Position numbers and translations under genes: made by a program. The notes under the pieces were generated by a model. It worked only from the letters and a program-made list of their open reading frames with translations. It searched no databases and was not told where the DNA came from. 64,000 bases of DNA from positions 1 to 64,000 of the forward strand of contig NZ_JAJTBB010000017.1 of assembly GCF_021287135.1 (NCBI RefSeq), read 5' to 3'. Source of the stretch: Acidovorax sp. (GTDB lineage Bacteria; Pseudomonadota; Gammaproteobacteria; Burkholderiales; Burkholderiaceae_C). Position 1 is the stretch's first letter. Each line of letters opens with the position of its first letter. Positions 8,863-22,765 of the stretch are shown one piece after another.

Positions 8863-9993
8863 ATGCTGCTGACCCAAGACCAGGAAATGATCCGCGACGC
8901 GGTGCGCGACTTTGCCCAGACCGAGCTGTGGCCCCACGCCGCGCGCTGGGACAAGGAACACCACTTCCCCAAGGACGCCCACCAGGGCCTGGCCGCCCTG
9001 GGCGCCTACGGCATCTGCGTGCCCGAGGATTTCGGCGGGGCGAACCTGGATTACGTCACGCTCGCGCTGGTGCTGGAAGAGATCGCCGCTGGCGACGGCG
9101 GCACCAGCACGGCCATCAGCGTGACCAACTGCCCGGTCAACGCCATCCTCCTGCGTTATGGCAATGCGCAGCAACAGCGCGACTGGCTTACGCCGCTGGC
9201 CCGCGGCGAAATGCTGGGGGCGTTCTGCCTGACCGAGCCGCATGTGGGTTCCGACGCCTCTGCCCTGCGCACCACGGCCGTGAAGCAGGGTGACGAATAC
9301 GTGATCAACGGCGTCAAGCAGTTCATCACCAGCGGCCAAAACGGCCATGTGGCCATCGTCATCGCCGTGACCGACAAGGGCGCAGGCAAGAAGGGCATGA
9401 GCGCCTTCCTCGTGCCCACCCACACGCCGGGCTACGTGGTGGCGCGGCTCGAAGACAAGCTCGGTCAGCACAGCAGCGACACGGCGCAGATCAACTTCGA
9501 CAACTGCCGCATCCCCGCCGAGAACCTGATCGGCGCCGAGGGCGAGGGCTACAAGATCGCCCTGGGCGCGCTCGAAGGCGGGCGCATCGGCATCGCGGCG
9601 CAGAGCGTGGGCATGGCGAGGAGTGCGTTTGACTTTGCCGTGCAGTACGCGAAAGAGCGCGAGAGCTTCGGCACCGCCATCTTCAACCACCAGGCCGTGG
9701 GCTTTCGCCTGGCCGAGTGCGCCACGCAGATCGAGGCCGCGCGCCAGCTCATCTGGCACGCGGCGGCGCTGCGCGATGCGGGCCGCCCCTGCCTGAAGGA
9801 GGCCGCCATGGCCAAGCTGTTTGCCAGCGAAATGGCCGAGCGCGTGTGCAGCGCCGCCATCCAGACCCTGGGCGGCTACGGCGTCGTCAACGACTTCCCG
9901 GTGGAGCGCATCTACCGCGACGTGCGCGTGTGCCAGATCTACGAGGGCACCAGCGACGTGCAGAAGATCCTCATCCAGCGCGCGCTGGCGTGA
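8863..9993 (+). CDS. Acyl-CoA dehydrogenase
   Basis: 376 residues, full length. Family signatures are AFCLTEPHVGSDASAL, FITSGQNGHVAIVIAV and the C-terminal YEGTSDVQKILIQRALA. The segment EGGRIGIAAQSVGMA has no Glu at the isovaleryl-CoA dehydrogenase position. The catalytic base is therefore likely the Glu of YEGTSD, as in short-chain, glutaryl- and 2-methyl-branched-chain enzymes. GGAGACACCCC precedes the start. It may act on another branched- or short-chain acyl-CoA of the same regulon. Confidence 0.94.
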   Translation: MLLTQDQEMIRDAVRDFAQTELWPHAARWDKEHHFPKDAHQGLAALGAYGICVPEDFGGANLDYVTLALVLEEIAAGDGGTSTAISVTNCPVNAILLRYGNAQQQRDWLTPLARGEMLGAFCLTEPHVGSDASALRTTAVKQGDEYVINGVKQFITSGQNGHVAIVIAVTDKGAGKKGMSAFLVPTHTPGYVVARLEDKLGQHSSDTAQINFDNCRIPAENLIGAEGEGYKIALGALEGGRIGIAAQSVGMARSAFDFAVQYAKERESFGTAIFNHQAVGFRLAECATQIEAARQLIWHAAALRDAGRPCLKEAAMAKLFASEMAERVCSAAIQTLGGYGVVNDFPVERIYRDVRVCQIYEGTSDVQKILIQRALA

Positions 9994-10119: not shown

Positions 10120-10830
10120 TCAAGCGGCGCTGCGCCGGGCCGCCCGCGGCTGGGCCGGCGGGTTGCGGGGGCTGGCCGCGCGGCCCGCTTGCGGCTGCAC
10201 CTTGGTGAGGTGGCTGGCCACCATGCCCGCCACGGTGCGCGCCACGGCATTCACATCCAGCGGCTCGTCGAAGATCATTTCAACGGTGGCATAGATCAGC
10301 TCCACCACGATGCGACTGACCAGCTGCAGTTCGGCCGCGTCCGCCCCGGGCAGCGCCCGGGAAAGCAGGCGCGCCTGCTCCTGCGTGACGGTGGCGTGCG
10401 ACGCCAGGCGCACCTCCTGCAACGCCGGCACTGCGCGCAGCGCCCGCATGATCCAGACCCCGCCCACCGTCTGCACCGTGGCTTCGTAGGTGTCGAGGAT
10501 CAGCCCCTCCACGGCGCGCTCCAGGCTCTCCACGCCCCCCGCCAGCGCGTCCAGCGTGATCCAGCGGTCCACGCGCGCGTTCTGCGTTTGCATCAGGCGC
10601 TTGCCCAGCTCGGACAGCAGGGCGTACTTGTTGGGGAAGTAGCGGTACAGCGCGGGCGGCGTCAGCCCGGCGCGCTCGCACACCAGGTTGGTGGACAGCC
10701 GCTCGATGCCTACGTCGGCCAGCGTCTGGGCCGTCACCTCCAGGATGCGTTCGTACGTCTCTGCGGCCCGCTGCTGCGCAGGCTGTTTCTTGGTGGCCAG
10801 CGAAGGCGGGTGGTGGCGGGTGGCAGGCAT
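10120..10830 (-). CDS. TetR-family transcriptional regulator
   Basis: 236 residues. The N-terminal helix-turn-helix (about residues 25-70: TYERILEVTAQTLADVGIER, then CERAGLTPPALYRYFPNKYALL) is typical TetR. The ligand-binding C-terminal domain is variable and gives no substrate. The last 30 residues are Ala/Arg/Pro-rich. The gene is divergent from the DUF2147-porin pair, and a promoter with an overlapping inverted repeat lies in the gap. It is therefore probably a repressor of itself and of those genes, perhaps of the sugar-kinase cluster beyond. Confidence 0.93.
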   Translation of the reverse strand: MPATRHHPPSLATKKQPAQQRAAETYERILEVTAQTLADVGIERLSTNLVCERAGLTPPALYRYFPNKYALLSELGKRLMQTQNARVDRWITLDALAGGVESLERAVEGLILDTYEATVQTVGGVWIMRALRAVPALQEVRLASHATVTQEQARLLSRALPGADAAELQLVSRIVVELIYATVEMIFDEPLDVNAVARTVAGMVASHLTKVQPQAGRAASPRNPPAQPRAARRSAA

Positions 10831-10876: not shown

Positions 10877-10907
10877 TTTACGCAAACAATAGTCATAACT
10901 ATATACT
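10877..10907 (+). promoter_or_regulatory. Candidate promoter with overlapping TetR-type operator
   Basis: A -35-like TTTACG (10877-10882) and a good -10 TATACT (10902-10907) are separated by 19 bases. Lying between them is ATAGT-CATA-ACTAT (10889-10902), a perfect inverted repeat that abuts the -10. A repressor bound there would block RNA polymerase. The site lies in the gap between the TetR gene and DUF2147. Confidence 0.6.
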
Positions 10908-10957
10908 AGCCATCGCTATCTTGGCGGTTTTGCTTTGGCTCAAGAAAGGAGCGCGCG

Positions 10958-11386
10958 ATGAAGACCACGATCTGCTGGCTGGCCCTGGGGAGCTGCCTTC
11001 TGGCGGCCGCCGCCCGCGCGGCCGGGCCCGACGATGCCCAGGGCTTGTGGATGACGGCCGAGCGCGATGCGGTGATCCGCTTTGCCGCCTGCGATGACGC
11101 ACCGGCCGCGCTGTGCGGAACCGTGGTGTGGGACAAGGATGCCGGCACCCCCGCCAGTACCTGCCATGTGCGCATCGCCCAGCTGGCTCGCTATGCCGGT
11201 GATGCGTGGCGCGATGGCTGGGTGTTCGATCCGCGCGACCAGAAGAAATACAAGGGCGCCGTGCGCGCCAAAGGGGACGAGCTGCGCATCCGCGCTTTCG
11301 TGGGGGTGGAGGTCCTGGGGCAGACCGAGCAGCTCCAGCGCGTCGCGGCCTTGCCGGCGGCACCGTCGTGTGCGCCGGGCTCCTGA
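10958..11386 (+). CDS. DUF2147-like exported protein
   Basis: 142 residues with a signal peptide (MKTTICWLALGSCLLAAAARA). The mature part has the pattern of DUF2147: an opening GLWMTAERDAVIRFAAC, then CGTVVWDKDAG, and RDQKKYKGAVRAKGDELRIRAFVGVEVLGQTEQLQRV. It is probably a small beta-barrel (lipocalin-like) periplasmic protein of unknown ligand. AAAGGAG precedes the ATG. It lies just downstream of the candidate TetR-controlled promoter and upstream of the porin gene. Confidence 0.85.
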   Translation: MKTTICWLALGSCLLAAAARAAGPDDAQGLWMTAERDAVIRFAACDDAPAALCGTVVWDKDAGTPASTCHVRIAQLARYAGDAWRDGWVFDPRDQKKYKGAVRAKGDELRIRAFVGVEVLGQTEQLQRVAALPAAPSCAPGS

Positions 11387-11453: not shown

Positions 11454-12335
11454 ATGAGCCTGATCCGTGTCCCGTCCGCCGCGCTTGCCGTGGCCTTCTG
11501 CTCCGGCGTGGCCCTGCCGGCATCCGCGCAGGAAACCGCCAGCTATGCGGTCACCACCGATGTGAAGCTCACCACCGACCAGCGCAGCCGAGGCGTGTCG
11601 GACTCGCTGCGGGGCCCGGCGGCCAAGCTCAACGTGCAGCTTGCCCATGAAAGCGGCTGGGTCGCCCTGGCCGAGTTCGCCACCGTGAGCCGCAAGCAAT
11701 TCCTGGACGGTGCGGGCCTGGGCGTCACGCTGGCCGGCGGCTACCGGTTCGGAGACCCGGACGGCTGGCACTACGGCCTGGGCCTGGCCGCCGAGATGTT
11801 CCCGGGTGCCAGGTTTCAGGCACCCCATGGCTTCAACATGGAAACCGGTGAGCCCACCGACTGGCGCAGCACCCGCTACAACAGCGCTTTTGCCGTGGCC
11901 GAGATCGGCTACGGCAACCTGGAGGCCCGCGTGATGAACGTGATCTCCAAGACCTACCGCGGCATCAACACCGGCGGGGTCTGCGGCACCATGCTGTCGC
12001 TGATGGCGGACCCCACCCCGGCGCTGGAATGCTATGCCCGCGGCGACCACAACTCGCGTGGCAGCTGGCTGTTCGACGTGGGCTACAAGCACCCGCTCAA
12101 CCCGACCACCACGCTCAACCTGCACGCCGGCTACCAGCGCATCGCCCACTTCAAGGAAGCGAACTTCTCGGACTACGCCATCGGCATCACGCACAAGCGC
12201 TGGGGCTTCCATTGGACCGCCGAATGGATGACCACCCGCACCCGCGTGCGCGAGCTGTACATCGCCATGGACGGCGCCCGCCCCCGAGCGACGGACAACA
12301 GCCGCGTGGTCCTCTCGGTCTCGCGCAGCTTCTGA
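11454..12335 (+). CDS. TorF-family putative outer-membrane porin
   Basis: 293 residues from the ATG preceded by AAGGAG. A signal peptide ends at ALPASAQ. The start of the mature part (SYAVTTDVKLTTDQRSRGVSDS) is like the opening strands of the TorF/Gcw_chp family. The protein ends in a C-terminal Phe (VVLSVSRSF), the outer-membrane insertion signal. Alternating beta-strand pattern throughout. It likely forms a channel for the substrate of the neighbouring genes (inference); the family has no well-defined substrate. Confidence 0.87.
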   Translation: MSLIRVPSAALAVAFCSGVALPASAQETASYAVTTDVKLTTDQRSRGVSDSLRGPAAKLNVQLAHESGWVALAEFATVSRKQFLDGAGLGVTLAGGYRFGDPDGWHYGLGLAAEMFPGARFQAPHGFNMETGEPTDWRSTRYNSAFAVAEIGYGNLEARVMNVISKTYRGINTGGVCGTMLSLMADPTPALECYARGDHNSRGSWLFDVGYKHPLNPTTTLNLHAGYQRIAHFKEANFSDYAIGITHKRWGFHWTAEWMTTRTRVRELYIAMDGARPRATDNSRVVLSVSRSF

Positions 12336-12347
12336 CAGGACCGGTGG

Positions 12348-13937
12348 ATGCACGAAAAGCAGCTGGTGCTGGCGGTGGACCTGGGTACCTCGGGTTGCAA
12401 ATGCGCCCTGGTCGCGCTGGACGGCAGCGTGCACGCGTGGGCTTTCCGCCCGGTGCCGCTGCAGGTGCAGGGCGCGCTGGCCGAGCAATCTCCCCAGGCG
12501 TGGTGGAACGCCTTCCTCGACAGCGCCGGGGAAATCCTGGGGGCGGACGCTGCGCTGCGCCGCCGTGTGGCGGCCGTGTGCTGCTCCACCCAGACCGAGG
12601 GCACCGTGTGCGTGGACCGCGATGGCCAGGCCATCGGCAACGCCCTGACGTGGCTGGACGCCCGTGGCGCAGCCGCCATCGCCCGGCGCGTGCGCGGCAG
12701 GGCATTGAATATCGAGGGCTATGCGCCGCTTCGGCTCTGGCGCTGGCTGCGGTTGACCGGCGGGGCGCCCTCGCTGTCCGGGCGCGACTCGGCCGGGCAC
12801 ATGGCCTACCTGCACGACGAGGAGCCTGCGCGGTACGCGCGCACGTACAAGTTCCTCAACGTGCTGGACTACCTGAACCTGCGCCTGTCCGGGCGCTTCT
12901 GCGCCACGCAGGACTCCGCCGTCACCTCCTGGATCACCGACAACCGAGACCCTCACCGCGTGCGCTACGACGCGGGCCTCGTCCGCCTGCTGGGCCTGGA
13001 TGCCGCCAAGCTGCCAGACATCGTGCACTCCACCGACGTGCTGGGCCCGCTGCTGCCGCAGGTCGCGCAGGCGCTGGGGCTCAGCCCGCAGACCGTGGTG
13101 GTGGCGGGTGCGGTGGACACCTCGGCCGTGGCCGTGGGCGCGGCAGTGGCCGATTTCGAGACCCACCTGTACCTGGGCACCTCCTCCTGGCTGGGCGCGC
13201 ACGTGCCCTTCATGAAGACCGATGTGCGCCACAAGATCGCCGCCATCCCCAGCGCCGTCGATGGCCGTTACCTGGCCATGGCGCTGCAGTCCACGGCCGG
13301 AGCCAACCTGTCGTTCCTGCGCGACCGCATCCTCTACCACCCGGACGAGCTGGCCAGCGACGAGGAACATCCCGCCGTGTACGAGGTGCTCAACCGCATT
13401 GCCGCCCGCGTGCCGCCGGGCGCGCGGGGCCTGATCTACACGCCCTGGCTGCTGGGCGAGCGCACCCCGGTGGACGACCCGCGCCTGCGCGCCGGCCTGC
13501 TCAACCTGTCGCTGGAGCACACGCGCGAGGACATCTTCCGTGCCTTCCTGGAGGGCGTGGCGCTCAACACCCGCTGGATGCTGGAACCGTTTGCGCGCCT
13601 GCTGGGCCGCGAGGCCGGCGCCATCAACGCCGTGGGCGGCGGCGCCCAGTCGGACGTGTGGTGCCAGATCATGGCCGACGTCACGGGCCAGCCCGTGCGG
13701 CAGCTGGAGAACCCCATCCAGACCAACGCCATCGGCGCGGCCTTCATTGCCGGCGTGGGCCTGGGCGTGTGCACCTTTGCCGACCTGGCCCACCTGCGGC
13801 GAACCCGCGCCGTGTACGAGCCCAGCCGCGCGCTGCGCCGCCTGTACGGGGACCAGTTCGAGACCTTCAAGGAAGTGCGCACCCGCCTGGCGCCGCTCTA
13901 CCACCGCATCAACGCCCCGCGGGGCGCCGCCGCATGA
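12348..13937 (+). CDS. FGGY-family carbohydrate kinase (xylulokinase-like)
   Basis: 529 residues, full length for FGGY kinases. The N-terminal phosphate-binding segment AVDLGTSGCKCALVALDG and the C-terminal segment LNTRWMLEP...INAVGGGAQSDVWCQIMADVTGQPV are clear family signatures. It phosphorylates a sugar or polyol with ATP in the cytoplasm. The specificity (xylulose, ribulose, erythritol or another) cannot be assigned. The stop overlaps the start of the next gene by four bases, so kinase and aldolase are translationally coupled: kinase first, aldolase next is the logic of a catabolic route. Confidence 0.93.
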   Translation: MHEKQLVLAVDLGTSGCKCALVALDGSVHAWAFRPVPLQVQGALAEQSPQAWWNAFLDSAGEILGADAALRRRVAAVCCSTQTEGTVCVDRDGQAIGNALTWLDARGAAAIARRVRGRALNIEGYAPLRLWRWLRLTGGAPSLSGRDSAGHMAYLHDEEPARYARTYKFLNVLDYLNLRLSGRFCATQDSAVTSWITDNRDPHRVRYDAGLVRLLGLDAAKLPDIVHSTDVLGPLLPQVAQALGLSPQTVVVAGAVDTSAVAVGAAVADFETHLYLGTSSWLGAHVPFMKTDVRHKIAAIPSAVDGRYLAMALQSTAGANLSFLRDRILYHPDELASDEEHPAVYEVLNRIAARVPPGARGLIYTPWLLGERTPVDDPRLRAGLLNLSLEHTREDIFRAFLEGVALNTRWMLEPFARLLGREAGAINAVGGGAQSDVWCQIMADVTGQPVRQLENPIQTNAIGAAFIAGVGLGVCTFADLAHLRRTRAVYEPSRALRRLYGDQFETFKEVRTRLAPLYHRINAPRGAAA

Positions 13938-14587
13938 AGCACACCCCCGCCACCTTGCCCATCCGCCAGAGCGTCGTCGAGCTGTGCCTGGAGCTGTCGC
14001 GCCGCGGCCATTTCTCGGGCACCGGCGGCAACATTGCGCTGCGCGTCGATGCCGGGCACATCGCCGTCACGCCCTCGGCCACCGACTACCTCACCATGGC
14101 GGCCGACGACATCTGCGTGCTGCGCCTGGCCGACCTGCAGCAGGTCGCGGGCGCACGCGCCCCGTCGGTGGAAAGCGGCCTGCACGCCAAGGTGCTGCGC
14201 GCCCGGCCCGACGTGCAGGCCAGCATCCACACCCACCAGCCCGTGGCCAGCGCCTGCGCGCTGCTGGGGCGGCCGTTGGCCGTGCCGCCGGGGCGCCTGC
14301 AGGCCACGCTGGGGCCGTCCATCCCGGTGGTGGGCTATGCGCCTTCGGGCAGCGGCTGGCTGTCGTCCCGGCTGGCGCGCGCGTTGCGCCCGGACACCCA
14401 TGCCTACCTGATGCGCAACCACGGCGTGCTGTGCTGCGGCTCCTCCGCCGGGGCGGCCGTGCAGGCGGTGGAAGCGCTGGAGGCGCTGTGCCGCCAGCAG
14501 CTCTTGCAGGCCCTGTCGGAGCGTGCCCGCCGCGAGCCCGCCCTGCAGGCCGCGCTGCGCCGTGTGGCCGACGCGCTGGCGGCTTGA
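13934..14587 (+). CDS. Class II aldolase/adducin family protein (fuculose-phosphate-aldolase-like)
   Basis: 217 residues. FSGTGGNIALRVDAGHIAVTPSATDY matches the GTGGN phosphate/substrate loop. Zinc ligands are visible as HTHQ (in QASIHTHQPVASACALL) and a later His in LMRNHGVLCCG. The catalytic Glu is likely in APSVESGLHAKVL. Enzymes of this family cleave a phosphorylated ketose into a triose-phosphate/glycolaldehyde-phosphate part and an aldehyde, or epimerise pentose phosphates. Being coupled to the FGGY kinase, it probably uses that kinase's product. Confidence 0.93.
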   Translation: MKHTPATLPIRQSVVELCLELSRRGHFSGTGGNIALRVDAGHIAVTPSATDYLTMAADDICVLRLADLQQVAGARAPSVESGLHAKVLRARPDVQASIHTHQPVASACALLGRPLAVPPGRLQATLGPSIPVVGYAPSGSGWLSSRLARALRPDTHAYLMRNHGVLCCGSSAGAAVQAVEALEALCRQQLLQALSERARREPALQAALRRVADALAA

Positions 14588-14637
14588 GCGACCTCCTCCT
14601 CCACCTTTTCACCTTCGCACCTCCGCACTTGTTCACC

Positions 14638-16125
14638 ATGAGCAACCTTGCCCCCCTCCACACCGCCGCATCGGCTGCCACCCCGCGCCCTGCCATTTCC
14701 GCCTGGCCCGACGTGGACGATCTGTACCGCCGCTTTGCCGAGCTGGTGAAGCAGCCCATGCGCCCCATCCGCGCCGACAAGATGCCGCAGGTGATGCGCT
14801 ACTTCGACGAGCGCTGCCAAGGCTCCAAACGCTTGTCCGAGCGCGCCAAGGCCGTGATCCCTGGCGGCGTGCAGCACAACCTGGCCTTCAACCATCCGTT
14901 CCCGCTTGCCATCACGCAGGCCGATGGCGCGCACATGACCGACGTGGACGGCAACCGCTACATCGACTTTCTGCAGGCCGGTGGCCCCACGCTGCTGGGC
15001 TCCAACCACCCGGCCCTGCGCCAGAAGGTGAACGAGGTGCTGGATTCGTGCGGCCCCGTCACCGGCCTGCTGCACGAATACGAGGTCAAGCTGGCCGAGC
15101 TGGTGTGCCAGAGCATGCCCGGCGTTGACATGGTGCGCCTGCTGGGCTCAGGCACCGAGGCCGTGATGGGCGCGGTGCGCCTGGCGCGCGCCTACACCGG
15201 CAAGAAGCGCATCATCAAGGTGGGCGGCGCCTACCACGGCTGGAGCGACCAGCTGGTCTACGGCATGCGCCTGCCCAAGACCGGCCGCATGGAGGCCGTG
15301 GGCATCCCGCGCGGCGCCACGGGCAACACGCAGGAATGCAACCCCAACGACCTGGACGCCCTGCGCAGCCAGCTGCGCTGGAACCGCCTGCGCGGCGGCA
15401 CTGCGGCAGTGCTGGTGGAACCCCTGGGCCCCGAGAGCGGCACCCGCCCCGTGCACCCCGACTACAACCGCCAGGTGCGGGCGCTGTGCGATGAGTTCGG
15501 CGCGCTGCTGATCTTTGATGAAGTGGTCACGGGCTTTCGCATCGGCATGGGCGGCGCGCAGGCCTACTTCGGCGTCAAGCCCGACCTCACCGTGCTGGGC
15601 AAGTGCCTCACGGGTGGCTACCCCATGGCCGGCGCCATCGGCGGGCGCCGCGACATCATGATGATGCTGGTGGGCGGCATCGGCACCACCGCCAAGCGCG
15701 CCTTCGTGGGCGGCACGCTGTCGGCCAACCCGCTGTCGTGCGTGGCCGGCTACTACGCGCTGCGGGAGGCGCAGCGCACCGACGCGGCCGGCGTGGCCGG
15801 GCGCGCCGGCGACCGGCTGCGCCAGGGGCTCGACGGCATCATCAACCGCCTGGGCCTGCCCTACGTGACCTACAACCTGGGTTCCATCGTGCACCTGCAG
15901 ACCTCGGGCGTGCTGCTGCTGGACACGGGCAGCCTGTGGAAGCTCTTCCGCGCCAAGGACGAGGCCAAGCGCCGCAAGCACATGATGGAAGAGATGGGGG
16001 CGGCCTACACCGCCCACGGCCTCATCACCCTGGCCGGCAGCCGCATCTACACCAGCCTGGCCGACACCGATGCGGTGATCGACGATGCGCTGAACCGTTT
16101 TGAAGACGTGTTCAAGCTGGTGTGA
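14638..16125 (+). CDS. Class III aminotransferase, glutamate-1-semialdehyde-aminomutase-like
   Basis: 495 residues. The PLP lysine is about residue 322 in TVLGKCLTGGYPMAGAIGG. Further signatures are LGSGTEAVMGAVRLARAYTGKKRIIKV, AYHGW and LIFDEVVTGFR. The fold is that of HemL, but an N-terminal extension of about 60 residues and the setting beside a sugar kinase and aldolases argue against haem synthesis. It could move an amino group to or from an amino-sugar or amino-aldehyde intermediate. The function is not assigned. It starts about 50 bases after the aldolase stop, in the same operon. Confidence 0.92.
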   Translation: MSNLAPLHTAASAATPRPAISAWPDVDDLYRRFAELVKQPMRPIRADKMPQVMRYFDERCQGSKRLSERAKAVIPGGVQHNLAFNHPFPLAITQADGAHMTDVDGNRYIDFLQAGGPTLLGSNHPALRQKVNEVLDSCGPVTGLLHEYEVKLAELVCQSMPGVDMVRLLGSGTEAVMGAVRLARAYTGKKRIIKVGGAYHGWSDQLVYGMRLPKTGRMEAVGIPRGATGNTQECNPNDLDALRSQLRWNRLRGGTAAVLVEPLGPESGTRPVHPDYNRQVRALCDEFGALLIFDEVVTGFRIGMGGAQAYFGVKPDLTVLGKCLTGGYPMAGAIGGRRDIMMMLVGGIGTTAKRAFVGGTLSANPLSCVAGYYALREAQRTDAAGVAGRAGDRLRQGLDGIINRLGLPYVTYNLGSIVHLQTSGVLLLDTGSLWKLFRAKDEAKRRKHMMEEMGAAYTAHGLITLAGSRIYTSLADTDAVIDDALNRFEDVFKLV

Positions 16126-16152
16126 CGCGTGCTGCTTTACCCCATGCACCAA

Positions 16153-16212
16153 CCGTTCGGGCTGTGCTTGTCGAAGCGCTGCGCAAGGCTTCGACTGGCC
16201 CAGCCCGAACGG
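16153..16212. repeat. Dispersed palindromic repeat, type 2, copy 1
   Basis: A 12-bp perfect outer stem, CCGTTCGGGCTG (16153-16164) with CAGCCCGAACGG (16201-16212). Inside it is a second pairing region around TTGTCGAAGC and GCTTCGAC. It lies between the aminotransferase and the next gene of the cluster. A second, less perfect copy is at 53173-53244. Confidence 0.88.
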
Positions 16213-16253
16213 GCATGAATGATCGAACACGGATTCGCAGGAGGCATCACCCC

Positions 16254-16871
16254 ATGAACACCCCAGACCCGCTGCGCCAAGAGTGGACCGCGTTGCGCAA
16301 CCGCCTGCAGGCCAGGCAACTGTTGCAAGGCGAGGGCGCCAGCCTGTCGCTGCGCATCCCCGGCAGCGGTGCCATGTGGTTCGGCTTGGTCGCGGACGAG
16401 CAGCCGCAGCGCGTGCCCCTGCACACGCCGCTGCCGCAGGCCGCGGTGCACCGGCAGGTCTATGCGCGGCGCGCCGACGCAGGCGCGGCGGCCCTGGGCG
16501 GCGGGGCGTTCGGCCAGTGCCTGGCGGACTTTGGCGGCACCCTGCCCCAGGTGTTTGACGAGCAGGCGCGCCACCTGGGCCCCATGCACCCAGCGGGCGC
16601 CGCAGTGGCCGTGCCTGGGCGCGGCAATGTGGCGCTGGTGGCGGGGCAACCGCTTTGCCTGGGCACCACGGCGCTGCGGCTTGCGCTCAACGCCGAACTG
16701 TTTGAAAAATGCGCCAAGGCCTATGTGCTGGCCGTGGCCGGCGGCGGGCGCGTGCGCCCCTTGCCCTGGATCGTGCGGTGGGTGGCCAACCGCCGGCTGG
16801 GCAAAGATCAGCAGCGCGCTGCGGCACGCCTCCAGCAGGGCTTGCTGCCCGAGGAAAGCGCGGGCTACTGA
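16254..16871 (+). CDS. Degenerate class II aldolase/adducin-like protein
   Basis: 205 residues with a strong ribosome-binding site (AGGAGG). The N-terminus (LLQGEGASLSLRIPG) and the C-terminal half (LRLALNAELFEKCAKAYVLAVAGG, then PWIVRWVANRRLGKDQ) resemble class II aldolase/adducin proteins. The HTH zinc motif is replaced by GGGAFGQCL in LGGGAFGQCLADFGGTLPQVFDEQARHLG. It has therefore probably lost aldolase chemistry and may be a regulatory or structural partner. The family call is by eye and moderate; a fully novel protein is the alternative. Confidence 0.68.
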   Translation: MNTPDPLRQEWTALRNRLQARQLLQGEGASLSLRIPGSGAMWFGLVADEQPQRVPLHTPLPQAAVHRQVYARRADAGAAALGGGAFGQCLADFGGTLPQVFDEQARHLGPMHPAGAAVAVPGRGNVALVAGQPLCLGTTALRLALNAELFEKCAKAYVLAVAGGGRVRPLPWIVRWVANRRLGKDQQRAAARLQQGLLPEESAGY

Positions 16872-16904
16872 CCGGCCTCCACCCCCACAACGAAGGGCGA
16901 CCCC

Positions 16905-18074
16905 ATGAGCATGCACCCCACCGCACCCATTCCTGCCTCTCAGGTGGTCGCCGCGCTGGCCATCGGCACCATCGCCGTGCTCATGGTGGGCGTGCAGCCC
17001 ATCGTGCTGGGCGAACTGGTGGACGCGCGCCAGGTCAGCCTGGAAGGCGTGGGCATCGTGGCCATGGCCGAGATCATCCTGCTCGGCCTGGGTGTGGTGC
17101 TGGGCGACGTGCTGCTGCCCGTGGGCCAGCTGCGCTGGATCACCCTGGCTGCCGCGCTGGCGGCCGGGGGCTTGGACGCGCTGACCGTGCGGGCCACGGG
17201 CGATGGCGCCATGACAGCGGTGCGTGCAGCCGCGGGCCTGGCCGAGGGCGTGCTCATCTGGGGCACCACCGGCGTCATCGTGCGCACGGCCCATCCGGCG
17301 CGCGTGGGCGGCATCTTCTTCGTGCTGCAGACCCTGGCGCAGGCCCTGCTGGGCCTGGTGCTGGCCCACGCCATCATCCCGCGCTGGGGGTGGCAGGGCA
17401 GCTTCGGCATCCTGGGCGTGCTGGCACTGTCGTGCTGCGTGCTGGCCTTCCTGCAGCCGGCGCGCCTGGCGCCGCTCGTGCCGCCCACCGTGTCGGGCTT
17501 TCGCTGGTCCGGGCGCACGCTGCAGCCGCTGGCCGTGGCCTTCCTGCAGCTGGCCACGCTGGGCTCCTTCTGGGCTTACCTGGAACCCTTGGGCCAGGCC
17601 GCGGGGTTTGATGGGCGCGGCGCCCAGACCCTGATTGCGGCCGTGCTGGCCACCCAGGTGGTGGCCGGCTGCGTGGCCACGTGGGCCGTGCGCCGCCTGC
17701 CTGTCGTCCCCACGCTGGTGGCCTGTTCGCTGGCGCTGGCGGCTGTCACCGCCACCGTGTACCAGCTGCCCGCCGGCAGCACGCGCAACTTCGCGCTGGC
17801 CTGCCTGCTGTTCGGCTTTGTGTGGCTCTTCATGCTGCCCTTCCATATCGGGCTGGCCTTTCGCGCCGACCCCAGTGGGCGCCTGGCCGGCCTGGTGCCT
17901 GCTGCGCAGTTGCTGGGCAGCGCGTTCGGGCCGCTCATGGCGTCGTTCATCGTGCACGGCGACGACGCCAGTGCCGTGCCGCTGCTCAGCGCGGGGTTTG
18001 CCCTGGCGGCAGGCGTGCTGGTGCTGGCCGGCCGCGCACCACGCTCTACCGCACGGGCCGCGGCCTTGCCGTGA
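16905..18074 (+). CDS. MFS transporter
   Basis: 389 residues, almost all hydrophobic helices, consistent with 12 membrane segments in the inner membrane. Segments such as ALAIGTIAVLMVGVQPIVLG at the start, and GLAFRADPSGRLAGLVPAAQ near the end, fit single-subunit secondary carriers. It is downstream of the kinase-aldolase-aminotransferase genes with short gaps, so it is the likely importer for their substrate. Nothing in the sequence fixes the substrate. Confidence 0.88.
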   Translation: MSMHPTAPIPASQVVAALAIGTIAVLMVGVQPIVLGELVDARQVSLEGVGIVAMAEIILLGLGVVLGDVLLPVGQLRWITLAAALAAGGLDALTVRATGDGAMTAVRAAAGLAEGVLIWGTTGVIVRTAHPARVGGIFFVLQTLAQALLGLVLAHAIIPRWGWQGSFGILGVLALSCCVLAFLQPARLAPLVPPTVSGFRWSGRTLQPLAVAFLQLATLGSFWAYLEPLGQAAGFDGRGAQTLIAAVLATQVVAGCVATWAVRRLPVVPTLVACSLALAAVTATVYQLPAGSTRNFALACLLFGFVWLFMLPFHIGLAFRADPSGRLAGLVPAAQLLGSAFGPLMASFIVHGDDASAVPLLSAGFALAAGVLVLAGRAPRSTARAAALP

Positions 18075-18105: not shown

Positions 18106-19542
18106 ATGGACCCTGCCGACGACACCGCCCCCCAGGTGCTCCAGCACCTGTTTGACCGCCAGGCGCCCACCGCCTTGGCCCTGCGCAGCTCCACCGCCCG
18201 CGAGCGCGCGGCCAAGCTGCGGCGACTGCGCGACGGCCTGCTCAGCCGCCGCGAGGCGCTGTACCAGGCCTTCGCGGCCGACCTGCGCAAGCCGCCGCTG
18301 GAGGTGGACCTGACCGAGCTGCTGCCCGTGGTGGACGAAGCGCGCCACGCCATCGCCCACCTGGCGCGCTGGATGCGGCCCCGGCGCGTGGGGCCCACGC
18401 TCACCACGCTGGGCACGCGCGCCCGGGTGCTTTGCCAGCCCCGGGGGCGCTGCCTCATCATCGGCCCGTGGAACTACCCGGTGAACACCTTGCTGGGGCC
18501 GCTCGTCTCCGCCATCGCGGCGGGCAATGCCGTCATCCTCAAGCCCTCGGAGTTCACGCCCCACGTCAACGCCGTGGTGGCCGAGCTGGTCGCCGCGCTG
18601 TTCGACCCCGCCGAGGTCGCGCTGGTGCAGGGCGGCGTGGCCACGGCCCAGCACCTGCTGGCACTGCCGTTCGACCACGTGTTCTTCACCGGTTCGCCCG
18701 CGGTAGGCAAGGTGGTGATGGCCGCGGCCGCCCGGCACCTCACGTCGGTCACGCTGGAGCTGGGCGGCAAGTCGCCCGTGGTCGTGGACGCGTCGGCCGA
18801 CCTGCGCCGCGCGGCCGCGCTGGTGCTGTGGGGCAAGTTCACCAATGCCGGCCAGACCTGCGTGGCGCCCGACCATGTGTACGTGCACCGCAGCGTGTAC
18901 GCCCGCTTTGTGCAGCTGTGCCGGGAGACCCTGGCCGCGCGCTACGGCAGCACCGACGCGGCCGTGCAGGCCAGCCCCGACCTGGCGCGCATGGTCACGC
19001 GCCGCCATGCTGAGCGCCTGGGCGGACTGATCGATGATGCCCTGGCGCGCGGCGCCACGCTACTGGCCGGCGGCCGGCATGACGCCGCACAGCGCTACGT
19101 GGCGCCCACGCTGCTGGGCGATGTGCCCGCCGGCGCGCGCATCAGCGGCGAAGAGATCTTCGGCCCCGTGCTGCCCATCGAGACGTATGACGATCTGCAG
19201 CAGGTCATCGACCGCATCAACGCCCAGCCCAAGCCGCTGGCGCTGTACCTCTTCAGCCACCACCGGCCTGCGCAGGCGCTGGTCACGGCGCAGACCAGCT
19301 CGGGCGGCATCTGCCTCAACCACTGCATGCAGCAGTACGCGCATGGTGGGTTGCCGTTCGGCGGGGTGAACCATTCGGGCATTGGCAACGCGCATGGGCG
19401 CTACGGCTTCAAGGCGTTTTCGCACGAGCGCGCCTGTCTGGCCGCGGGGCCGTTCACGGTGGTGCGGCTGTTCTTTGCGCCCTACACCGTGCTGCGGCAC
19501 CGGCTCAGCACGGTTTTGGTCAAAGCCTTGCGCTGGGTGTGA
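18106..19542 (+). CDS. Aldehyde dehydrogenase (coniferyl/fatty aldehyde type)
   Basis: 478 residues from the ATG at 18106. The ALDH3-like layout is clear: GPWNYPVNTLLGPLVSAIAAGN, the catalytic Glu218 in TLELGGKSPV, the nucleophile Cys252 in NAGQTCVAPDHV, and the C-terminal GLPFGGVNHSGIGNAHG. It oxidises an aldehyde to an acid with NAD(P)+. The C-terminal hydrophobic tail (FTVVRLFFAPYTVLRH) may give membrane association. Within the cluster it could oxidise the aldehyde released by the class II aldolase (inference). Confidence 0.93.
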   Translation: MDPADDTAPQVLQHLFDRQAPTALALRSSTARERAAKLRRLRDGLLSRREALYQAFAADLRKPPLEVDLTELLPVVDEARHAIAHLARWMRPRRVGPTLTTLGTRARVLCQPRGRCLIIGPWNYPVNTLLGPLVSAIAAGNAVILKPSEFTPHVNAVVAELVAALFDPAEVALVQGGVATAQHLLALPFDHVFFTGSPAVGKVVMAAAARHLTSVTLELGGKSPVVVDASADLRRAAALVLWGKFTNAGQTCVAPDHVYVHRSVYARFVQLCRETLAARYGSTDAAVQASPDLARMVTRRHAERLGGLIDDALARGATLLAGGRHDAAQRYVAPTLLGDVPAGARISGEEIFGPVLPIETYDDLQQVIDRINAQPKPLALYLFSHHRPAQALVTAQTSSGGICLNHCMQQYAHGGLPFGGVNHSGIGNAHGRYGFKAFSHERACLAAGPFTVVRLFFAPYTVLRHRLSTVLVKALRWV

Positions 19543-19571
19543 TGGCACGCCAAGAAACCAGGAGACGGGCC

Positions 19572-20015
19572 ATGCCATCCGAAGCGAAATCCCCCGGCGC
19601 CGCCACCCTGCGGGAGGCGCGGTGTGGCGCCCCATGGAGGGCCGTGCGCGCGCGGGTCACCGCCCGGGTTCTCTCCCTTTGCTGCGCGGGTGGGGTGTGG
19701 CTGCTGGCGGGTTGCGGCCCCAACCCTGCGCCGCCCACGGACGCCGACGTGCGCCGCGCCGAAGCCCTGCGCCCGCGCGATGCGCAGCTGGCCGCCAAGT
19801 ACGAGCGCTCCTGCCTGCTGTGCCACGGCGTGCGCAGCGGCGCACCGCTGGCGGGGTTTGCCCCCGCCTGGAAGGCCCGCGCAGCGCAGGGCGAGGGCGC
19901 CTTGCTGGCCCATGTGCGCGAGGGCTTCAACGCCATGCCCGCCATGGGGCTGTGCACCGACTGCAGCGACACCGAGCTGCGCCAGCTCATCCACTTCCTG
20001 ATCCAGGGGTCATGA
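19572..20015 (+). CDS. c-type cytochrome, probable lipoprotein
   Basis: 147 residues from the ATG preceded by AGGAG. One haem site, CLLCH (residues 81-85), is present. A C-terminal GLCTDCSDTELRQLIHFL gives the second Cys pair typical of cytochrome c5/CccA-type proteins. The N-terminus has a hydrophobic stretch ending in the lipobox LLAGC (Cys48). A start further downstream (GTG near 19641) would give a more usual signal peptide length. The product is likely anchored on the periplasmic face, where it could accept electrons from the flavoprotein encoded next, one base away. Confidence 0.88.
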   Translation: MPSEAKSPGAATLREARCGAPWRAVRARVTARVLSLCCAGGVWLLAGCGPNPAPPTDADVRRAEALRPRDAQLAAKYERSCLLCHGVRSGAPLAGFAPAWKARAAQGEGALLAHVREGFNAMPAMGLCTDCSDTELRQLIHFLIQGS

Positions 20016-21461
20016 ATGACCATGCCAACCCACCCTTCGGCGTTCGCGCGATTCAGCCGCCGCCGCGCCATGGCCGCGAGCGCCTCCGCCGTGGTGGCCG
20101 GCCTGCTCGCCCCGCCGCAGCTGGCGGGCAGCGCCCGGGCACAGAGCCAGCCCGCGCCAGGGACGGGGCTGCCCACGCCGCCGGCCCCGCCGCAGCCCTG
20201 GCAGAACTGGTCGGGCGTGCTGCGCGCACAGCCCCGGGCGCGCGCCCTGCCGGCCGATGAGGCCGAGCTCGCCGCGCTGCTGGCGCGCTCCACCGGAGAG
20301 GTGCGGGTGGCGGGGGCGGGGCATTCGTTCTCGGCCCTGGTGCCCACCGCTGGCACGCTGGTGTCGCTGGACCGCCTGTCCGGCATCGTGCGCATCGACA
20401 AGGCTGCGATGACCGCCACGGTGCACGCGGGCACGCGCCTGGGCGCCCTGGCGCGCCTGCTGGACGCCGAAGGCCTGGCGCTGCCCAACCTGCCGGACAT
20501 CGACGCGCAGACCCTTGCCGGCGCCATTGCCACCGGCACGCATGGCACCGGTGCCGCGCTGCCCGCGGTGCACGACGGCGTGGCGGGTGCGCGGCTGGTC
20601 ACCGCGGCCGGGCAGGTGGTGGAGCTGGGCGGGCCGCGCGACGCGGATGCACTGGCGGCGCTCCGCGTCTCCCTGGGCTGTCTGGGCGTGGTGTCGCAGC
20701 TCACGCTGCGCGTGGTGCCCGCGTTCAACCTGCGGCGCAAGGTGTGGCTGCAGCCCGTGCAGGACCTGCTGCGCGACGCACCGGCCCTGGCCGCCAGGCA
20801 CCGCCACTTCGAGATGTTCGTGCTGCCCTTCACCGGCTATGCGGCCGGCGTGGCCCATGAGGTGTACGAGGGCAACGACCTGCTGCTGCCCAGTTCTGCC
20901 GAGGATGCGATGCTGGCCGACCTGCAGCGCCTGCGCGACTGGCTGGGGCGCTTTCCCGCGTTGCGCACCTGGGCGGCGCAGCGCTTCATCGACCCGCAGC
21001 AGACCGAGGAAGCCCGCGAGCGCGCCCACCGGCTGCTCTCCACCGTGCGGGCGTCGCGCTTCAACGAGACCGAGTGGCATGTGCCGGCGGAGAACGGCAT
21101 CGCCTGCTTGCGCCAGGTCATCGATGCCCTGCAGCAGCACAACGAGGCTTTCTACCCCATCGAGTTCCGCTGGGTGCGGGGCGACGGCGCGTGGCTCAGC
21201 CCCTTCCATGGCCGCGACAGCTGCTCCATCGCCCTGCACGCCGCCGCGGGCGAGCCCTACGACTACATCGTGCAGATCGGCGCCACCATTTGCCGGGCCC
21301 ACGGCGGCCGCCCGCACTGGGGCAAGATGCACCCGCTCGCGGCCACCACGCTGGCGCCGCTGTACCCGCGCTGGCGCGACTTCCAGGCGCTGCGCGCGTC
21401 GTTCGACCCGCAGGGCCGCATGCTCAATGCGCACCTGCGGTCGGTGTTTGGCATTGCCTAG
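20016..21461 (+). CDS. FAD-linked sugar-lactone/alditol oxidase-like protein, Tat-exported
   Basis: 481 residues. A Tat signal (SRRRAMAAS then a hydrophobic stretch ending near SARA) precedes a VAO-type FAD domain: VRVAGAGHSFSAL, where the His may carry FAD covalently, and LAGAIATGTHGTG. The C-terminus has the HWGKMHPL motif of D-arabinono-1,4-lactone/alditol oxidases. The family oxidises sugar lactones or alditols. Here the enzyme is exported and is encoded one base after a cytochrome c, so it probably acts as a dehydrogenase feeding that cytochrome rather than oxygen (inference). Confidence 0.9.
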   Translation: MTMPTHPSAFARFSRRRAMAASASAVVAGLLAPPQLAGSARAQSQPAPGTGLPTPPAPPQPWQNWSGVLRAQPRARALPADEAELAALLARSTGEVRVAGAGHSFSALVPTAGTLVSLDRLSGIVRIDKAAMTATVHAGTRLGALARLLDAEGLALPNLPDIDAQTLAGAIATGTHGTGAALPAVHDGVAGARLVTAAGQVVELGGPRDADALAALRVSLGCLGVVSQLTLRVVPAFNLRRKVWLQPVQDLLRDAPALAARHRHFEMFVLPFTGYAAGVAHEVYEGNDLLLPSSAEDAMLADLQRLRDWLGRFPALRTWAAQRFIDPQQTEEARERAHRLLSTVRASRFNETEWHVPAENGIACLRQVIDALQQHNEAFYPIEFRWVRGDGAWLSPFHGRDSCSIALHAAAGEPYDYIVQIGATICRAHGGRPHWGKMHPLAATTLAPLYPRWRDFQALRASFDPQGRMLNAHLRSVFGIA

Positions 21462-21469
21462 GGGACCCC

Positions 21470-22765
21470 ATGAAGCGTCAAGGACTCACCCGGCGCCGCG
21501 TGGTGGCGGCGGGTGCGCTCGCCGCCACGGGCGCCGCGCTGCTGGCCGCACGCCCGGCCGACCGGGGCGCGCCCCACACCGGCGACTTCGCCGCCATGGC
21601 CCAGGCGCTCAAGGCTGCCGGCCTGGCCCTGCAGCCTACGCTGGTGGTGGACCGGGCGCGGCTGCGCGCCAACGCGGCCAAGGTGCGCGCGCACGTGCAG
21701 GGCCGACCGCTCGCGCTGCGGCTGGTGAACAAATCCCTGCCCTGCCTGGGCCTGCTCGACGAGGTGGGCGCCGCCACCGGCAGTGCCCGGCAGATGGTGT
21801 TCAGCCTGCCTTATCTGGCCCTGATCGCCCAAGAGCGGCCGCACACCGATGTGCTGCTGGGCAAGCCCGTGCCCGCCGCGGCGGCGGCGGCCTTTCTGGC
21901 CATGCCGCCAGCCTCCGGCTTTGACCCGGCGCGCCAGCTGCAGTGGCTGGTGGATACGCCCCAGCGCCTGGCGCAGTACCGTGAAATTGCGCGTGGGCGT
22001 GGGCAGCCGATGCGCATCAACATCGAGATCGACGTGGGCCTGCACCGCGGCGGCGTGGCGGACGCCGACACGCTGCGCGCCCTGCTGCAGATGGTGCAGG
22101 AAGAGCCGCTGCTGCGCTTTGCGGGCTTCATGGGCTACGACGCGCACACCCAGAAAATTCCGGACATCGCCGGAGCGCGCGCCCGCGCGCACCACGACGC
22201 GCTGGCGGCCTACCAGGGCTTTGTGGATGTGCTGCGCGCAAGCCCGCTGCCATCGCCGTCCGGGCCGTGGACCTTCAACACCGCCGGCTCGCCCACCTTC
22301 CGCCTGCACGACGGCAGCGGCGCGGCCAACGAGGTGGCGGTGGGCTCCGCCATGGTGCTGCCCTCGGACTTCGACACGCCCCTGCTGGTCGACCTGGCGC
22401 CCGCCGCGTGGATCGCCACGCCCGTCCTCAAGGTGGGGGCGTTCGCGGCGCCCGACGGCGTGGGCGCCCTGGGCCGTCTGGCGCGCGCGTGGGACGCCAA
22501 TGAGCGCACGGCGCATTTCATCCACGGCGGCAACTGGCTGGCCGACCCCGTGTCTCCGCCGGGCCTGGGCACCAGCGTGCTCATGGGCCTGTCGTCCAAC
22601 CAGCAGCTGCTGGTCGGCTCCGGCACCCAGGCCCTGCGGCCCGACGACGTGGTGTTCTTCCGCCCCCGGCAGAGCGAGGCCGTGCTGCAGCAGCTGGGCG
22701 ATATCGCCGTGTACGAGGGCGGGCGCATCGTGGGCCAATGGCCCGTGTTCCCGGCGCGGGGCTGA
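21470..22765 (+). CDS. PLP barrel-fold enzyme (D-threonine aldolase/D-serine dehydratase-like), Tat-exported
   Basis: 431 residues. LTRRRVVAAGALAATGAALLAA is a twin-arginine leader. The alanine-racemase-type barrel follows: PTLVVDRARLRANAAKV, the probable PLP Lys88 in LRLVNKSLPC, INIEIDVGLHRGG, and the C-terminal LLVGSGTQALRPDDVVFFRPRQSEAVLQQLG of DSD1-type proteins. The usual RPHxKTH context of the lysine is changed to LRLVNKSLPC. A secreted PLP fold III enzyme is uncommon. It starts 8 bases after the flavoprotein stop, so the two are co-expressed. The reaction is unknown. Confidence 0.85.
   Translation: MKRQGLTRRRVVAAGALAATGAALLAARPADRGAPHTGDFAAMAQALKAAGLALQPTLVVDRARLRANAAKVRAHVQGRPLALRLVNKSLPCLGLLDEVGAATGSARQMVFSLPYLALIAQERPHTDVLLGKPVPAAAAAAFLAMPPASGFDPARQLQWLVDTPQRLAQYREIARGRGQPMRINIEIDVGLHRGGVADADTLRALLQMVQEEPLLRFAGFMGYDAHTQKIPDIAGARARAHHDALAAYQGFVDVLRASPLPSPSGPWTFNTAGSPTFRLHDGSGAANEVAVGSAMVLPSDFDTPLLVDLAPAAWIATPVLKVGAFAAPDGVGALGRLARAWDANERTAHFIHGGNWLADPVSPPGLGTSVLMGLSSNQQLLVGSGTQALRPDDVVFFRPRQSEAVLQQLGDIAVYEGGRIVGQWPVFPARG

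Follow-up and report, generated by a model that had tools for sequence, protein, structure and literature searches.

Eukaryotes break down sphingoid (long-chain) bases by way of sphingosine kinase, sphingosine 1-phosphate (S1P) lyase and Mpo1, with phosphoethanolamine and a fatty aldehyde as the products of the lyase. The pathways for L-fucose and L-rhamnose use the pairs FucK/FucA and RhaB/RhaD. This paper describes a gene cluster from Acidovorax sp. (contig NZ_JAJTBB010000017.1, positions 1 to 64,000; these 64,000 nucleotides are called the window) in which a kinase and an aldolase of the sugar-pathway kind stand with an aminotransferase and with homologues of the Pseudomonas aeruginosa sphingosine genes sphBCD. 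The cluster is very probably linked to sphingolipids and, more exactly, probably serves the breakdown of sphingoid bases. The reading preferred here, which we hold to be reasonably likely, is a TetR-controlled operon for the catabolism of such bases, most likely of 4-hydroxylated ones such as phytosphingosine.

For P. aeruginosa, excerpts of two papers describe sphBCD as induced by sphingosine through SphR and report that sphingosine builds up without sphBC (PMC3900636, PMC11893366), and that sphBC affect growth with sphingosine, sphinganine and phytosphingosine (PMC11893366, excerpt). Oxidation at C1 followed by cleavage to glycine and an aldehyde was already proposed in 2014 (PMC3900636, excerpt). 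The excerpt of PMC11893366 leaves the product of SphBC open, and its Discussion counts sphBC-independent sphingosine management among the open issues and names plants as a source of sphingoid bases in the rhizosphere. In the open-access literature searched, the genes found for bacterial sphingosine metabolism were P. aeruginosa sphBC; a description of an operon such as this one was not found there. The operon is a concrete candidate for sphBC-independent sphingosine management.

Link of the operon to sphingolipid genes

Relatives of the cluster were collected by a contig scan with the aminotransferase, from which the best 80 of 233 related stretches were kept, and two plasmid loci were added to give 82 loci. 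Flanks of up to 10 kb (12 kb for the plasmid loci) were searched, some of them ending early at contig ends, and a gene was scored as present by its best tblastn match at E ≤1e-5. Kinase, aldolase and aminotransferase stand in the same order on one strand at all 82 loci, and they are the sole set present at every one.

In the window, everything from the DUF2147 gene (10958) to the end of sphD (22765) lies on one strand, with computed gaps between -4 (an overlap) and 128 bases, so these genes probably form a single 11-gene operon. Its probable order is DUF2147, TorF porin, kinase, aldolase, aminotransferase, pseudo-aldolase, major facilitator superfamily (MFS) carrier, aldehyde dehydrogenase, sphB, sphC and sphD. 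The first-pass annotation had described the five genes from kinase to MFS carrier as a cluster; these genes are where it placed them, and the kinase and aldolase reading frames do share four bases, but the unit is larger and reaches DUF2147 and TorF upstream and the aldehyde dehydrogenase and sphBCD downstream, with the five genes probably at its middle. The suggested search for the same gene order elsewhere showed it to be widespread.

The Sph proteins were compared with a P. aeruginosa plasmid record that has an annotated sphR (L102). SphB of the window matches at 46% over 98 amino acids, SphC at 40% over 424 (1e-101) and SphD at 46% over 403 (8e-108). In that record sphR stands with genes for a cytochrome c5, a D-arabinono-1,4-lactone oxidase, a DSD1-family enzyme and a transporter, an arrangement that agrees with sphBCD, sphA and sphR as described in the excerpt of PMC3900636. 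The sole NCBIfam match of the window SphD is the BhcC 3-hydroxy-D-aspartate aldolase model (9.5e-14, far under the cut-off). SphD of the window and of 11 relatives has an RR-containing, twin-arginine-like start, as judged by eye, and the annotated P. aeruginosa start is without one. A pyridoxal phosphate (PLP) enzyme sent to the periplasm would be unusual.

A SphC match (E ≤1e-40) was found in 13/49 and 2/28 cluster genomes, together 15/77, and in 4/299 other genomes of the order, one of these matches being partial (G285; Fisher 3e-8 against 15/77). Only the pooled figure was used, because the first 50 loci (49 genomes) included every locus with known sphC and 13/49 is thus biased upward. The 77 leave aside the genome of L029 (a locus with sphC) and the plasmid loci L007 and L008, and merge L063 and L085, which are second loci. 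The cluster genomes in this comparison were found through the aminotransferase; the controls, from one order and with at most five candidates scored per genome against at most 40 in cluster genomes, may undercount SphC.

Eleven of the 15 genomes carry SphC within the locus fetched for the cluster; in G333, G338, G355 and G361 it is outside. The sph genes are downstream of the cluster in L009, L017, L021, L024 (sphC only), L027, L041, L066 and L070, inverted in L023, and upstream in L031 and L035; this repeated joining in varied arrangements argues for a shared role. Counted by locus, sphD was matched at 13/82, sphC at 12/82 and sphB at 8/82, and two of the sphD matches (L057, L058) have 22% identity and are unlikely to be SphD. 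AraC-type matches to SphR occur at 17/82 loci, two of them short or weak (L045, L012). Such regulators were dropped as evidence, since SphR itself and five of these proteins match the QhpR and GliR models about equally well.

A second line of evidence is the predicted operator. The palindrome GATAGTCATAACTATC was found in 64 of 72 tetR-side regions (≤2 mismatches), often twice at 17-bp spacing, and its 12-bp cores in the window are at 10890 and 10907. This site is the single exact match in the window's own genome, where two further sites have two mismatches. The tandem pattern is specific: a search of 49 cluster genomes gave 48 sites, spread over 41 of the genomes, and the reversed tandem control gave 0. 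It is present at 63/82 cluster loci. Among the 48 sites, 43 are in fetched cluster loci, two stand beside tetR-DUF2147 at contig ends (L180, L181) and are the missing halves of clusters, and three are elsewhere (the Albitalea terrae ceramidase site, one in G304 and one in G343).

The predicted motif also stands before sphingolipid genes: single copies precede a TonB receptor-sphBCD unit in L023 and L031, the site before sphC in L035 is tandem, and in one genome it precedes a ceramidase. An SDR gene in L070 likewise has tandem copies in front of it, and at L055 a weaker site precedes an epimerase-family open reading frame (ORF). Beside the TonB receptor-sphBCD unit of L023 is a second TetR-like ORF with its own operator copy (L023:17581), and the two TetRs there appear to share one DNA motif. 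No operator site was found in L083-L088, six loci with a more divergent aminotransferase.

The strongest single result comes from Albitalea terrae. In this genome the operator sites at ≤1 mismatch are the cluster promoter and one exact tandem site on another contig (L136), which lies some 70 bp ahead of the likely start codon (ATG) for a ceramidase that matches the neutral ceramidase structure 2zws (1.7e-133). The following gene, on the same strand, encodes a glycoside hydrolase family 5 (GH5) protein, which has a GH5 C-terminal and a ricin-type domain and matches the endoglycosylceramidases 6jyz (2.5e-23) and 2osw (3e-16); its top-ranked PDB match is ThreeFoil, by way of the lectin part. Two enzymes of a kind that frees ceramide and sphingoid bases from sphingolipids thus have the operon's operator motif in common.

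Albitalea terrae (G324, L035) is the one genome among the 49 cluster genomes with a neutral ceramidase. The search of the window's own genome found none, and the control genomes of that search were also without a match. Neutral ceramidase was therefore rejected as a general companion of the cluster, and only its position behind the operator in Albitalea terrae is informative.

Other lipid-type neighbours occur. A gene for an Mpo1-like protein (2-hydroxy-palmitic acid dioxygenase) is present at 3/82 loci (L007, L030, L057). A fatty-acid-hydroxylase superfamily gene (PF04116) lies near the cluster at L086:994-2193, with a 90% identical copy in L085; it is a possible sphingoid-base C4 hydroxylase.

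Core enzymes

The kinase has both FGGY domains and the catalytic Asp. D11, G13, T14 and Asp257, whose roles we take to be those usual in the family, are kept in at least 97% of 83 rows. The first aldolase is nearest to L-fuculose-phosphate aldolases (FucA) in a PDB search, and its E80, H99, H101 and H163 (the catalytic Glu and three metal His) are present in 83/83 rows. The FucA models score far under their cut-offs on it (PRK08087 80.7 vs 264, TIGR01086 71.3 vs 400.25), and the family models that it matches include dehydratases and epimerases.

The second aldolase-like protein has no Pfam match at E ≤0.001 and aligns with the first by profile (hhalign probability 97.9), which makes it an aldolase homologue. 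In the window it has GGGAF against HTHQP of the first aldolase and GQ-PLC against NHGVLC; the Glu and all three His are absent, and it looks like a conserved pseudoenzyme, a catalytically dead paralogue. E. coli fuculose-phosphate aldolase is a homotetramer in which two adjacent subunits build each active centre (PMC11274987, excerpt), and since active centres there span two subunits, a mixed complex of aldolase and pseudo-aldolase is plausible.

The aminotransferase is a sister of HemL in a clade of its own. HemL models match it under their cut-offs (311.8 vs 398 and 291.2 vs 527.3). A tree of 29 rows, with 21 of the 83 cluster rows picked for spread, groups the cluster aminotransferases together (100/99), apart from four HemL proteins, one of which is the window genome's own HemL, encoded on another contig. 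Lys324 and Asp296 are kept in the cluster aminotransferases. Of two claims of the first-pass annotation, that the second aldolase-like protein has no metal ligands is borne out and that the aminotransferase is not a true HemL is supported. Because the clade is separate and the gene order widespread, neither of the two outcomes that the annotation had set against itself, grouping with true HemL and an order confined to this strain, occurred.

In the PDB search the aminotransferase matched HemL structures at 1e-74 and FumI, an aminopentol aminotransferase (6hbs; PMC9858248, excerpt), at 2e-29. FumI-type enzymes take the C2 amine off hydrolysed fumonisin B1, a sphinganine analogue (PMC9858248, excerpt). 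That a class III aminotransferase deaminates such compounds and is among the matches would suit a cluster that detoxifies sphinganine-analogue products (fumonisin-, sphingofungin- or AAL-toxin-like) and does not act on membrane sphingoid bases. We consider this highly improbable, as the aminotransferase is far nearer to HemL structures than to FumI, the operator is common to ceramidase and endoglycoceramidase-like genes in one genome, and the aldolase would find no C4 hydroxyl on fumonisins.

Proposed pathway

The scheme builds on what the sequences give directly: the operon anatomy, the catalytic residues, the sphBCD homologues and the motif common to the ceramidase and endoglycoceramidase-like pair in one relative. 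The first-pass annotation had suggested an amino sugar or amino polyol as substrate. Conversion of a 2-amino polyol to a ketose, phosphorylation and cleavage does fit all members. That polyol is most probably lipid in nature, namely a sphingoid base, because of the sphBCD homologues and the operator before the ceramidase/endoglycoceramidase-like pair.

A transaminase-kinase-aldolase scheme on 4-hydroxy bases is, in our judgement, rather likely. The porin and the MFS carrier (in some relatives a TonB receptor) would move the base. The aminotransferase would turn the C2 amine into a ketone, with the lipid "ketose" 1,3,4-trihydroxyoctadecan-2-one as the product, and the FGGY kinase would phosphorylate the C1 hydroxyl; the order of these two steps could be swapped. 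The class II aldolase would cut C3-C4 by retro-aldol cleavage into dihydroxyacetone phosphate (DHAP) and pentadecanal, perhaps with the dead paralogue as a structural partner. The aldehyde dehydrogenase would turn pentadecanal into a fatty acid for beta-oxidation. Its best NCBIfam match is MdlD, under the cut-off (381.7 bits vs 550), and its C-terminal tail is hydrophobic and basic, as judged by eye. The scheme uses the members that are present at 82/82 loci.

Phytosphingosine is (2S,3S,4R)-2-amino-1,3,4-octadecanetriol. Hand bookkeeping of priorities gives a (3R,4R) product for its transamination, because a C2 ketone in place of the amine alters the priority order at C3. A FucA-type aldolase needs a C1 phosphate, a C2 ketone and hydroxyls at C3 and C4; sphinganine and sphingosine, having no C4 hydroxyl, are barred from the aldolase route unless they are hydroxylated. 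FucA forms (3R,4R) products (PMC11274987, excerpt). SphB-SphC-SphD would offer a parallel arm to bases that have no 4-hydroxyl: after C1 oxidation, a retro-aldol cut would release glycine and a fatty aldehyde. By the same hand bookkeeping, C1 oxidation turns the (2S) centre into (2R), of the D series, and this fits the 3-hydroxy-D-aspartate aldolase match of SphD. The split into two arms is a guess.

Several observations weigh against this picture. The split itself sits poorly with P. aeruginosa, where sphD is dispensable and sphBC affect all three bases (PMC11893366, excerpt). SphC was not found in 62 of the 77 cluster genomes, nor ceramidase in 48 of the 49, so the operon depends on neither. 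The link between ceramidase and operator comes from one genome. Single operator sites are unspecific: the window's own genome has 3 against 11 in the reversed control (≤2 mismatches), a ratio that makes loose single matches meaningless, and 25 genomes have 36 against 20 (≤1 mismatch). Single matches, being near background, were dropped as evidence, and exact or tandem sites alone were used. The second Ser of the FucA PSSE motif aligns with Val79 of the aldolase in 82/83 rows. At the Butyrivibrio plasmid locus the pseudo-aldolase has no match and kinase and aldolase are divergent (30%). The preference for phytosphingosine over sphingosine and sphinganine comes from chemistry, the C4 hydroxyl for the retro-aldol step, and not from genetic data. 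Near the cluster are also a melibiase gene and what by eye are ABC-like ORFs (L083) and two GH35/42-like genes (L084), and a group of ATP-binding cassette (ABC) transporter ATPases recurs at 5 loci; these glycosidase and ABC neighbours may point to a sugar or to glycosphingolipids.

Part of this evidence would suit a water-soluble amino sugar or amino polyol that is transaminated, phosphorylated and cleaved by an aldolase, with the adjoining sphBCD as a separate pathway. The family logic of an FGGY kinase, a FucA-type aldolase and a class III aminotransferase points the same way, as do the genomes with no SphC match and the glycosidase and ABC neighbours. Such a substrate is nonetheless improbable. 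One operator motif precedes sphBCD, the ceramidase/endoglycoceramidase-like genes and the kinase operon, and sphBCD is joined to the cluster in varied arrangements. Common neighbours across the loci are the porin, DUF2147, MFS, TetR and aldehyde dehydrogenase genes, and no sugar-specific enzyme was found among the 11 Pfam-searched groups of the 25 recurrent further ORF groups. Little speaks for a soluble amino sugar, as only a few loci (L083, L084) have sugar-type neighbours.

Another alternative keeps sphingoid-base catabolism and assigns other steps to the enzymes. The kinase would make a long-chain-base 1-phosphate, the PLP enzyme would act as a phospholyase or as a HemL-like 2,1-aminomutase on an amino aldehyde made by SphC, and the aldolase would be some other lyase or a dehydratase. 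HemL, the sister of the aminotransferase, is an aminomutase of an alpha-amino aldehyde, and both the dehydratases and epimerases in the aldolase family and Val79 in place of the FucA Ser are compatible with such a role. These steps seem unlikely: SphC as the would-be source of the amino aldehyde is unmatched in most cluster genomes, an active site with the FucA-type Glu and all three His in place speaks for retro-aldol cleavage, and the sole set at every locus is the kinase, the aldolase and the aminotransferase.

The transaminase-kinase-aldolase reading names enzymes and measurable predicted products, namely DHAP, an aminated acceptor and pentadecanal, and the operator sequence can be used to seek further sphingolipid genes.

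Features and distribution

The start of torF at 11454 was placed by inspection of the translation, which leaves a gap of about 67 bases before the gene. The genes that flank the operon read as acyl-CoA and leucine-type catabolism from their translations, and 8863-9993 is an acyl-CoA dehydrogenase by domain search. No Rfam family was found at gathering scores in positions 8000-30000 of the window, and a generic scan for promoters and terminators added no information.

Table 1. Coordinates in the window of the regulator, the presumed operator and the genes of the probable operon, with domain matches and occurrence among the 82 loci.
Feature	Coordinates	Strand	Evidence and occurrence
TetR regulator gene, divergent	10120..10830	-	TetR_N 7e-13; homologue at 71/82 loci
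Tandem operator, presumed TetR sites	10888..10920	.	Palindrome consensus GATAGTCATAACTATC twice, 17 bp apart
DUF2147 small protein, operon gene 1	10958..11386	+	DUF2147 8e-14; 56/82 loci
TorF-family putative outer-membrane porin	11454..12335	+	Gcw_chp 4e-13, TIGR02001 above cut-off; 54/82 loci
FGGY kinase	12348..13937	+	FGGY_N 3e-30, FGGY_C 1e-29; 82/82 loci
Class II aldolase, fuculose-1-phosphate aldolase type	13934..14587	+	Aldolase_II 1.6e-42; 82/82 loci
Class III aminotransferase, PLP Lys324	14638..16125 (ATG 14638)	+	Aminotran_3 2e-55; 82/82 loci
Putative pseudo-aldolase (paralogue that lacks the catalytic Glu and the metal His)	16254..16871 (ATG 16254)	+	hhalign 97.9; 81/82 loci
MFS carrier	16905..18074	+	MFS_1 1.8e-10; 75/82 loci
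Aldehyde dehydrogenase, candidate fatty-aldehyde dehydrogenase	18106..19542	+	Aldedh 1e-91; homologue at 49/82 loci
SphB homologue, cytochrome c	19542..20015	+	Cytochrome_CBB3 1e-12; lipobox-like LLAGC
SphC homologue, flavin adenine dinucleotide (FAD)-linked oxidase	20022..21461	+	TIGR01679 above cut-off; twin-arginine-like signal
SphD homologue, PLP enzyme	21470..22765	+	Ala_racemase_N; twin-arginine-like signal

Members of the Alpha-, Beta- and Gammaproteobacteria carry the cluster, as do an acidobacterium and a plasmid of Butyrivibrio; the carriers include Burkholderiales, Pseudomonas, Xanthomonas, Dyella, Marinobacterium and Granulicella (Acidobacteriota), and among them are Hydrogenophaga taeniospiralis (L011) and Roseateles depolymerans (L079). 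Within the window's own order it is rare: among 299 other genomes the aminotransferase was found in none (E ≤1e-80, at most five candidates scored per genome), and neither was the pseudo-aldolase (E ≤1e-6, at most ten candidates). Horizontal transfer is the likely cause of this patchy distribution.

A Burkholderia ambifaria plasmid typed as conjugative (L007) has an aminotransferase 86% identical to that of the window. An IS5 transposase gene stands on either side of its stretch from the kinase to the Mpo1-like gene, and a Tn3 transposase gene lies farther upstream; because of these genes and the type of the plasmid the stretch may be mobile. On the plasmid of Butyrivibrio fibrisolvens, a rumen Firmicute (L008), the aminotransferase is 58% identical and a GtrA gene lies between aldolase and aminotransferase.

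Operator sites off the cluster occur elsewhere as well. In G304 a perfect tandem site precedes an alpha/beta hydrolase-DUF1302-DUF1329 set (L179:3616-8180), possibly further members of the regulon acting on lipid esters. The tandem site of G343 (G343:C11:281006) has two mismatches. Reading the ORFs at the single off-cluster sites L139, L140, L141, L142, L143, L146, L147 and L148 gave no clear link.

Comparison with known systems

One of the nearest described systems is the sphBCD operon of P. aeruginosa (PA5328-PA5326), part of the SphR regulon. The last three genes of the window operon are homologous to it in identical order, and motifs read by eye in the window proteins (LLAGC and SRRRAMAA) resemble lipoprotein and twin-arginine-translocation signals. 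The two differ in that the genes here lie in a probable operon with those for kinase, aldolase, aminotransferase, pseudo-aldolase, MFS carrier, aldehyde dehydrogenase and porin, and in that the adjoining regulator is a TetR, with no AraC-type SphR beside the genes.

With L-fucose/L-rhamnose-type catabolism (FucK/FucA, RhaB/RhaD) the operon has in common an FGGY kinase followed by a class II aldolase with a FucA-type active site. It has no isomerase and an aminotransferase in its stead, and an extra, apparently dead aldolase paralogue. Among the matches listed (25 of 27 for the aldolase), none reaches the curated cut-off for FucA, FucK, RhaB or XylB.

HemL, the glutamate-1-semialdehyde 2,1-aminomutase, is the sister group of the cluster aminotransferase and has the same Lys324 and Asp296. 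The cluster enzymes differ by about 65 extra N-terminal residues, by their separate clade and by scores under the cut-offs of both HemL models. FumI of fumonisin degraders is likewise a class III aminotransferase, and its substrate is a sphinganine analogue, which it attacks at the C2 amine (PMC9858248, excerpt), but it is distant in sequence from the cluster enzyme (2e-29).

The eukaryotic sphingosine kinase/S1P lyase/Mpo1 route resembles the proposed one in its phosphorylated long-chain base and its fatty aldehyde product, and Mpo1-like genes stand at the few loci mentioned above. It uses other kinase and lyase families, and it cuts C2-C3 to phosphoethanolamine, where the cut proposed here is C3-C4 to DHAP. 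Taken together, there is about an even chance that the cluster is a third sphingoid-base route beside S1P lyase and SphBC(D), one that would handle phytosphingosine as a lipid ketose and yield DHAP and an odd-chain fatty aldehyde, with an aldolase complexed with its dead paralogue, maybe the lipid-binding half of the site, and with a TetR as regulator, which would also switch on a ceramidase and an endoglycoceramidase in one genome or more.

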